Part shown: positions 7,556 to 16,681 of the stretch, one piece after another
Layout: each line of letters opens with the position of its first letter
Position numbering within the stretch: position 1 is the first letter of the stretch
Source: Longimicrobiales bacterium
GTDB taxonomy: Bacteria; Gemmatimonadota; Gemmatimonadetes; Longimicrobiales; Gaopeijiaceae
DNA: 64,000 bases
Assembly: GCA_028823235.1 (NCBI GenBank)
Contig: JAPKBW010000002.1
Coordinates: 167,046-231,045 of the forward strand
Direction: 5' to 3'
The notes under the pieces: model-generated
Told to the model about the DNA's origin: nothing
Seen by the model: only the letters and a program-made list of their open reading frames with translations
Databases searched by the model: none
Program-made: the position numbers and the translations under genes

Positions 7556-8200
7556 ATGCCAACATTGAGACAGGCCCTTGCCGACCTCCGCGCGGAGAAA
7601 GACGCCGCCCGAGATCCGGTCGCGACCACGATCATGAACCGTGCGACCGAACAGCTCGCAGCATCGCCGATCATGGAGTCGGTGGTGAAACAGGGAGACA
7701 CGGCTCCGATGTTCGCGCGACCCGACCTCGACGGGGAGACTGTGCGCCTGCGCTCCGTGCTCAAGGACGGTCCGGCCATCGTGAGCTTCTTTCGGGGCCG
7801 TTGGTGACCCTACTGTCACCTTGAGCAGGTTGCTCTCCAGGAACTGCTGCCGGAATTCACCAAGAAGGGAGCCACCCTTCTGACTCTCTCCCCTCAGCTC
7901 GAACCGTATGCGCGGAAGTGGGTCGAGGAAGACGGTGTCGAATATCCGGTACTCCTCGATCTCGGCCTCGGTGTGGCGCGCGACTACGGCTTGACCTTTG
8001 AACTCGGCGCCGAGTTGCGAAGCCTCTATACAGAGAGACTCAAGATCGACCTCTCCCGCTTCAACGGCGACCAGTCATGGGAACTCCCCATTCCTGCGAC
8101 CTGTGTCATTGATACGGACGGGACTGTGGTCTACGCCTCTGTCCATCCGGACTATACGCAGCGCCCCGAACCGTCTGAGATCCTTCAGGCGATCCCATGA
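7556..8200 (+). CDS. Peroxiredoxin-like selenoprotein (Sec at residue 84)
   Basis: This CDS is read through an in-frame TGA at 7805-7807. With TGA as selenocysteine it is 214 residues: helical N-terminus, GDTAPMFARPDLDG, then FFRGRWUPYCHLEQ, LLTLSPQLEPYARKW, and a C-terminal part with DQSWELPIPATCVIDTDG and PDYTQRPEPSEIL. This is the AhpC/TSA Prx-like2 family from end to end; relatives read WCPYC, so the TGA falls precisely on the peroxidatic cysteine and U84xxC87 replaces CxxC. Codon quality is unbroken on both sides and no frame change is needed. A bSECIS-like hairpin lies just after the TGA. Predicted role: thiol- or selenol-dependent reduction of peroxides. Alternatives are a nonsense mutation or a sequencing error, made less likely by a second case at 16262. 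Confidence 0.88.
7819..7841 (+). promoter_or_regulatory. Putative bacterial SECIS hairpin (Prx-like gene)
   Basis: Downstream of the TGA the RNA can form CCT/AGG (7819-7821 with 7839-7841), an asymmetric internal loop, then GAGC/GCTC (7823-7826 with 7832-7835) closing an AGGUU loop at 7827-7831. The loop begins 19 nt after the UGA, inside the spacing usual for bSECIS elements, and has G at the second loop position. It is coding sequence, as expected in bacteria. Confidence 0.65.
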
Positions 8201-15710: not shown

Positions 15711-16265
15711 ATGATCGAGACCGAGCGCCTCATCCTGCGTGAACTGGACGAAGAAGACTTCTCGGCGGTCCATGCATACGGCTCTGATCCTGAGGTCGTC
15801 GAATACCTCCCGTGGGGGCCGAACACGGCCCAGGTGACGCAAGATTTCATCGAGCGGAACCTGGAGCGCGCCGCCGCCGAGCCCCGACTCGAATTCGTGT
15901 TCGCAGTCGTGCCCAAGGAAACGGACGAACCCGTGGGGTCAGTGGGGATCTACCTACCATCTGCGGATGCCCATCTCGCGATGCTGGGATACGCCTACGG
16001 AAAGCCGGCATGGGGCAAGGGATACGCGACGGAGGCGGCACTCGCGATGGTCGCGATGGGCTTCGACATGCTGGGCCTGAAGCGAATCTGGGCGTCGTGT
16101 GACCCTGACAACACGGGGTCTGTCGGGGTGCTCCGGAAGTGCGGCATGACCCTCGAAGGCCAGCTCCGGAGGGAACAGAATATACGGGGGGCCTTGAGGG
16201 ATAGCATGATTTGGGGGATTCTCGAGCTGGAATGGAGAACTTTCCTCGAACGGAGCAACAGATGA
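15711..16265 (+). CDS. GNAT acetyltransferase, RimJ/RimL type
   Basis: A 184-residue protein opening with MIETERLILRELDEEDFSAV, the typical start of the RimJ/RimL-like GNAT group that acetylates protein N-termini or small amines. Motif A is YAYGKPAWGKGYATEAALAM (acetyl-CoA pyrophosphate loop), and RIWASCDPDNTGSVGVLRKCG is motif B. The stop codon overlaps the ATG of the following ArsC-like selenoprotein gene in an ATGA arrangement. Confidence 0.92.
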   Translation: MIETERLILRELDEEDFSAVHAYGSDPEVVEYLPWGPNTAQVTQDFIERNLERAAAEPRLEFVFAVVPKETDEPVGSVGIYLPSADAHLAMLGYAYGKPAWGKGYATEAALAMVAMGFDMLGLKRIWASCDPDNTGSVGVLRKCGMTLEGQLRREQNIRGALRDSMIWGILELEWRTFLERSNR

Positions 16266-16612
16266 CTCGCAGTCTCGAGTGGCGCTACCACCGCCCTGGC
16301 TGAACAAGCTGCAAACGCACTCAAGAGTTTCTTGAGCAGAATCAAATCCCCGATGGTGAGATCCAGAGCACCGGTCGAGACCCCATTGAGGGGGCCGCGG
16401 CCCTCGGAGTTCTCGACGGCGTCACGCACCTGCATGTGGCAAAAGGAAAGAAGTCGCTCTATGTCGACCTTTCCCAGGAGCGGCCGTCTGATGACGAACT
16501 CCTCGCTCTTCTCCTTGGACGATCCGGTAAGCTGCGGGCTCCGACCTTCAGGTCGGGCGATCGTCTGATTGTCGGTTACAACGCCGATCTCATGGCCGAA
16601 ACGATGCTCTGA
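16262..16612 (+). CDS. ArsC-like selenoprotein (Sec at residue 14)
   Basis: ATG 16262 overlaps the GNAT stop (ATGA). Reading the TGA at 16301-16303 as selenocysteine gives 116 residues: WRYHRPGUTSCKRTQEFL, then GVLDGVTHLHVAKGKK, LLALLLGRSGKLRAPTFRSG and LIVGYNADLMAETML. The last part is the highly characteristic C-terminus of small ArsC/Spx-fold proteins (LLGRSGxLRAPT...VG), and the start matches their HRPGCxSCKR redox motif with U replacing the first Cys (U14xxC17). Without read-through the gene has no start, so ordinary annotation misses it. A perfect 6-bp hairpin follows the TGA. Probable role: thiol-disulfide or arsenate-type reductase; the substrate is unknown. Confidence 0.9.
16320..16336 (+). 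promoter_or_regulatory. Putative bacterial SECIS hairpin (ArsC-like gene)
   Basis: CTCAAG (16320-16325) pairs perfectly with CTTGAG (16331-16336) around the loop AGUUU. The loop starts 22 nt after the UGA, within the usual bSECIS distance, and has G in its second position followed by U. The loop closely resembles AGGUU in the first selenoprotein gene, as expected if one SelB recognises both. Confidence 0.75.
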
Positions 16613-16650: not shown

Positions 16651-16681
16651 AAGGCCCGGGACGCTGCGCGTCCCGGGCCTT
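16651..16681. terminator. Strong bidirectional intrinsic terminator
   Basis: A perfect 14-bp stem, AAGGCCCGGGACGC / GCGTCCCGGGCCTT, with a TGC loop. It is followed by TCTTCC on the plus strand and preceded by A-rich sequence that serves as the T-run on the minus strand. It lies between the ArsC-like gene and the oppositely oriented gene at 16730-17353. Confidence 0.9.

Follow-up and report, generated by a model that had tools for sequence, protein, structure and literature searches.

A 64,000-nucleotide stretch of the genome of a Longimicrobiales bacterium (Gemmatimonadota; contig JAPKBW010000002.1, hereafter the window) contains, at 16262..16612 of the forward strand, a gene for a 116-residue ArsC-related (seleno)protein of the NCBIfam family NF041106. 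Its codon 14, a TGA at 16301..16303, is very likely read as selenocysteine (Sec, U) under the direction of a predicted bacterial selenocysteine insertion sequence (bSECIS) hairpin at 16320-16336. The evidence consists of the gene sequence and its family match, the conservation of the codon, covariation in the hairpin, and the Sec genes present in the genome.

A TGA codon shared across phyla

Read directly, the frame begins with an ATG at 16262-16264, passes through 13 codons to the TGA, and then stays open until a second TGA at 16610-16612. With the first TGA translated as U, the 116-residue product reads MTRSLEWRYHRPG-U-TSCKRTQEFL...LLLGRSGKLRAPTFRSGDRLIVGYNADLMAETML and carries a UxxC motif, U14-T-S-C17. 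The initial annotation, made from the letters alone, had described an ATG overlapping a GNAT acetyltransferase stop codon, 13 codons and then the TGA, exactly as found here. It continued with SCKRTQEFL, a sequence that is present but omits a T: the residues directly after the Sec codon are TSCKRTQEFL, followed by LLGRSGKLRAPTFRSG. A GGAG six bases 5' of the ATG resembles a ribosome site by eye.

We searched a set of 98 related genomes, the organism's own included, and found matches to the gene in 39 of them, at 41 places. One TGA is present in 35 places of 34 genomes; the other six places (five genomes) are remote open-frame matches with 21-25% identity and fall outside the codon reading. In all 35 orthologous places the aligned codon is TGA, and in 27 of these loci a start codon 39 bases 5' of it is conserved. 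In a phylum set of 395 genomes, 104 match and 66 exceed the family cut-off. The 67 places in these 66 genomes each contain exactly one TGA, its codon position having been read for 10 of them and for those also among the 35 orthologous places; the phylum matches under the cut-off vary, a single TGA being present in some while others are open. The named genomes yielded 90 stretches encoding a relative, the best 80 of which were kept. They come from Gemmatimonadota, Latescibacterota, Acidobacteriota, Planctomycetota, Myxococcota, Desulfobulbaceae and others, with one from Chloroflexota. These best 80 and the 10 phylum loci make up 90 further loci, with TGA in 85 and a Cys codon in 5.

In total, 125 loci were read as DNA in these overlapping sets, 120 with TGA and 5 with Cys, so no relative read lacks both a Sec and a Cys codon at this position. 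The sets overlap in genomes; counted as distinct 54-base stretches (n=99), 94 carry TGA and 5 carry Cys across phyla. One of the two search patterns applied to the named genomes required a Cys codon at the Sec position, and the excess of Sec is therefore not an artefact of that pattern. Among viral contigs, 28 pattern matches were found, none encoding a relative of the gene. Purifying selection acts on the part of the gene 3' of the TGA: the ratio of nonsynonymous to synonymous substitution rates (dN/dS) is 0.06-0.18 in the six comparisons, out of eight, in which dS was unsaturated, and the proportions of nonsynonymous and synonymous differences in the eight comparisons are 0.13-0.24 and 0.58-0.78, respectively. 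Several weak NF041106 matches with one internal TGA (E 1e-7 to 9e-4) were also observed, in G036, G244, G322, G364 (genus g24) and at G084:C132:14773-15087; these are perhaps additional ArsC-like selenoproteins that lie outside the family.

The machinery for Sec insertion is complete in the organism's own genome (3.1 Mb, 97% complete), the absence of which the initial annotation had named as evidence against a Sec codon. The genome has a tRNA-Sec (70.9 bits against a cut-off of 47; ARAGORN anticodon tca), SelB (324.6 bits), SelA (515.8 bits) and SelD (387.1 bits). SelD has an in-frame TGA of its own in the context ggt-tga-gcg-tgt-aaa (GUACK), and is therefore likely itself a selenoprotein. SelB exceeds the cut-off in 31 of 34 genomes carrying the gene, against 31 of 64 other relatives (Fisher P 2e-5), although these genomes are related and do not count as independent.

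The first in-frame start 3' of the TGA is the GTG at 16436, which leaves 58 amino acids. An ordinary gene caller could therefore at best recover the last half of the gene, in line with the expectation that a standard caller would miss it. Public records point the same way. Among the 120 database relatives listed (P0002-P0121), of 213 found, 116 begin after window residue 14, and the Sec residue is therefore mostly absent from public gene calls of this family. The four that begin before residue 14 have Cys (three) or Trp (P0003) there.

Covariation in the hairpin downstream of the TGA

The predicted bSECIS hairpin (16320..16336, forward strand; inverted repeat I4) pairs CTCAAG at 16320-16325 with CTTGAG at 16331-16336 across the loop AGTTT, giving a stem of 6 bp. 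An A-U closing pair extends the stem to 7 bp with a GUU loop. The spacing from the UGA to the loop is 22 nucleotides (nt). According to the legend to Fig. 2 of PMC13188914, the bSECIS model has an apical loop of 3-9 nt, an upper stem of 4-16 bp, a G in the first two loop positions and a distance of 16-37 nt from the UGA. The window hairpin falls within this description in loop, stem, loop G and spacing; the initial annotation had noted a perfect CTCAAG/CTTGAG hairpin with an AGUUU loop that starts at the expected distance. It differs from the model in its borderline energy, and the hairpin position shifts between 18 and 23 nt among branches of the ArsC-like family. The minimum free energy is -7.2 kcal/mol over 25 nt and -8.8 over 48 nt, around the threshold of -7.5 given in the same source.

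By covariation, the hairpin behaves as a bSECIS. In a first set of 31 distinct sequences, which leaves aside three more distant class-level loci, five of the six pairs are formed in all 31 and the sixth in 30. A wider set comprised the 75 TGA sequences, out of 94, that align without gaps. For comparison, we redrew each codon among its synonyms according to window codon usage, taken from 24 long window frames that were chosen by eye and are not curated genes. The full six-pair stem is present in 64 of the 75 sequences, against a mean of 1.5 and a maximum of 7 in 1000 draws, and standard pairs occupy 95.1% of the pair cells against 65.6% in the redraws. The second pair occurs in all four Watson-Crick forms (U-A 15, G-C 44, C-G 4, A-U 7, other 5), and the fourth is A-U in 54 sequences, G-C in 13 and other in 8. 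The covarying pairs link a silent position to an amino-acid-changing one: by eye, a Thr codon varies at its third base with Glu/Ala, and a Leu codon does so with Gln/Arg. In the loop, the Phe codon is TTT in 61 of 75 sequences, where 16.5 would be expected, and the loop G is found in 75 of 75.

Among the other 19 TGA sequences, six of six pairs form at the usual place in only one. We also applied the published bSECIS rules for loop and spacing, requiring four or more Watson-Crick pairs and using loops of 3-7 nt (out of the 3-9 nt permitted by the model), uniform synonyms and 100 redraws. These rules find a hairpin in 93 of 94 Sec sequences and in none of the five Cys sequences. For the 19, the count is 18, at 18-23 nt from the TGA, against a mean of 3.2 and a maximum of 9 in the redraws; the mean control values for the 75 gap-free sequences and the five Cys sequences are 17.9 and 0.7. 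An Anaerolineales homologue (L161, 1501-1827) has U-K-T-S, with the second Cys replaced by Ser, and keeps both the TGA and a perfect CTCGAG/AGTTT/CTCGAG hairpin.

Family, predicted function and competing readings

The window protein matches NF041106, 'ArsC family (seleno)protein' (ArsC_rel_Se_1), with an E-value of 7.4e-33; its score of 113.3 bits exceeds the cut-off of 85. Residues 5-109 align with positions 1-105 of the 107-position model. The protein thus covers nearly the whole model and shares its UxxC motif with TGA at the Sec position, and no difference from the family was found. The gene is a further member of an already published family and does not found a new one. Two ArsC-like selenoproteins are listed in a 2006 survey (PMC1794560), and a 2008 ocean survey (Global Ocean Sampling, GOS) reported an arsenate reductase with UxxC, 42 sequences, alongside one with UxxS (PMC2398784). 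Table 1 of a 2026 review gives NF041106 as arsenate reductase-like with UxxC and credits it to the 2008 survey (PMC13188914). In the available parts of these three papers we found no account of the covarying hairpin, the dominance of Sec or the nested Cys forms. The contribution made here beyond the known family lies in the covariation of the SECIS, the distribution, and the likely direction of change between Sec and Cys. We found no functional study of this family in a limited set of literature on Sec arsenate reductases, Spx/ArsC selenoproteins and gemmatimonad selenoproteins.

We predict that the gene encodes a small selenol-thiol (UxxC) redox protein of Spx/ArsC-like (thioredoxin-like) type; its predicted structure has a confidence (predicted local distance difference test, pLDDT) of 94.4. 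We infer Sec insertion, redox activity and recycling along the following lines. Bound to the hairpin, SelB carrying Sec-tRNA would deliver Sec at the UGA, and translation would terminate at the gene's own TGA at 16610-16612. Sec14 would then attack the substrate, and the intermediate, once resolved by Cys17 as a selenyl-sulfide, would be reduced by the thiol system of the cell.

Of the two more specific roles considered for a Sec-containing product, a selenium form of Spx, in which the U-x-x-C switch would bind RNA polymerase and alter transcription under oxidative stress, is unlikely. The closest solved structures by sequence and by fold are Spx proteins (Bacillus subtilis; 1z3e, 3gfk, 6ghb), and all eight Foldseek matches at E <= 0.001 are Spx. 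The Spx C-x-x-C aligns with U-x-x-C, an LR.P motif is shared, and 35 of the 41 members of family alignment A2 match the Spx/MgsR model, while all 41 match NF041106 at E <= 0.001. However, with 38.9 bits the window protein stays below the cut-off of 75.05 for Spx/MgsR (TIGR01617); it is about 15 residues shorter than Spx and has a predicted Sec in place of the first Cys. The second Arg of LRRP is Ala in the window protein and in 41 of 41 members of A2, and Ser in L071 of alignment A1. Furthermore, YffB and small glutaredoxin-like proteins tie with Spx in structural Z.

That the protein is a genuine arsenate reductase belonging to an arsenic resistance system is slightly less probable again. The Pfam ArsC domain is over its cut-off (28 bits against 24), but the protein reaches only 14 bits in the arsC model TIGR00014, whose cut-off is 106.05, and its second redox residue stands three positions on (UxxC). 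Scans of 20 window proteins (six without a family match) and of 20 hand-picked neighbours of 14 other loci (three without a match) turned up no arsenic gene. Because the arsC and Spx cut-offs are both missed, 'ArsC-like' is valid only for the fold and the Pfam domain; the initial assignment to an ArsC/Spx type holds to that extent and no further.

If the TGA encoded a different amino acid (Trp, for example) or were passed by leaky readthrough, selenium would not be involved. The Trp in P0003, one of the 120 listed proteins, is what a gene call with TGA as Trp would give. Against this, the gene itself terminates at a TGA, the Sec machinery is complete, the five non-TGA loci among the 90 carry Cys codons, and the hairpin accompanies TGA and not Cys codons; we regard the idea as highly improbable. 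Weakest is the view that the stop codon interrupting the frame is a nonsense mutation or sequencing error in a decayed gene or a chance pair of open frames, which the TGA at the same codon in 35 orthologous places and 85 of 90 further loci from several phyla, the purifying selection 3' of it and the covarying hairpin leave with almost no probability.

Three observations qualify the reading of selenocysteine insertion in an Spx/ArsC-like protein as we propose it. First, the ATGA overlap with the GNAT gene (15711..16265, forward strand; Pfam Acetyltransf_3 2.5e-37), cited initially as independent support for the start, is present but not general: 6 of 35 loci have such an ATGA overlap with a long open frame upstream, the GNAT identity of that frame having been read in the window only, and it lends the start weak support. 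Second, the single-sequence fold of the hairpin is ordinary in comparison with shuffled sequences (z 0.29, -0.73 and -1.37 for three stretches); energy alone could not confirm the hairpin, and covariation did. Third, the Spx fold match is moderate, which lowers confidence slightly. Selenocysteine nevertheless remains the reading at the redox position that best fits TGA or Cys at this codon in 125 loci, the covarying hairpin and the Sec machinery.

Sec and Cys forms and the genomic context

Sec predominates in this subfamily (94 of 99 distinct DNA sequences). The wider cd03032 group, to which PMC2398784 assigned an UxxC selenoprotein, has 238 Cys against 42 Sec forms as counted there, and the dominance is therefore a property of the subfamily and not of all its kin. 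Three more full-length database proteins with Cys (P0002, P0004 and P0005) stand outside the DNA counts. On a tree of 91 proteins, eight of them Cys forms (three being database proteins known as protein only), the Cys label requires five changes, at least three of which are forced by well-supported forks; the tree is based on few columns, lacks an outgroup root and has a bootstrap that is not settled. A supported clade of four Cys loci is nested within a Sec clade, and the fifth Cys locus is sister to Planctomycetota Sec forms. The nesting of the Cys forms in the sequence tree favours loss of Sec within the family, although transfer between lineages may have played a part. In the Cys form L162, six of six hairpin pairs are kept at the usual place (P 0.02, uniform synonymous codons); the four others keep five of six (P 0.14-0.22), and the early loop G is missing in four of the five. 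This suggests a SECIS fossil in Cys forms. It is conceivable, at rather long odds, that the family is a selenium-only relative of Spx that acts on RNA polymerase through a selenyl-sulfide switch sensing oxidants faster than a thiol, and that it is ancestrally Sec-containing, its Cys forms having arisen by repeated loss of Sec and hairpin, against the usual bacterial trend.

The window contains a likely second selenoprotein gene, for a 214-residue AhpC/TSA-type protein (7556..8200, forward strand; Pfam AhpC-TSA 5.4e-27) with the motif RGRW-U-PYC and a TGA at 7805-7807. It is probably the first selenoprotein implied when the ArsC-like gene was initially called the second. The 12 best places for this gene in 39 genomes, the organism's own included, each have one TGA. 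In the window and in four members of its genus (G011, G013, G012 and G001), a single contig carries both genes at a distance of 5-9 kb. The SelD gene with the in-frame TGA (GUACK) is at G000:C10:120945-121871 (L168), and another AhpC/TSA-like place with one TGA lies about 2 kb before it, at 118267-118737.

A perfect 14-bp inverted repeat (16651..16681, forward strand; I1 in the inverted-repeat search) begins 38 nt 3' of the ArsC-like gene. It received no terminator flag in the terminator scan and is a possible end of the GNAT-selenoprotein transcript. We also considered the gene neighbourhood as a clue to function and rejected it, as no partner was found and the neighbours outside the genus are unrelated. 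Shared neighbours, called with a crude greedy frame picker in which clusters 6 and 7 are frames overlapping the ArsC-like gene itself, are mostly confined to the genus of the window; the 20 hand-picked neighbours beyond it have varied, unrelated domains.

This gene, which ordinary gene calling would truncate, shows what reading the raw sequence can recover, and in this family the loss of the Sec residue from gene calls is systematic. The ArsC-like family is a useful case for the question of why bacteria keep Sec, and its hairpin is a natural experiment on the grammar of SECIS elements within a coding sequence.
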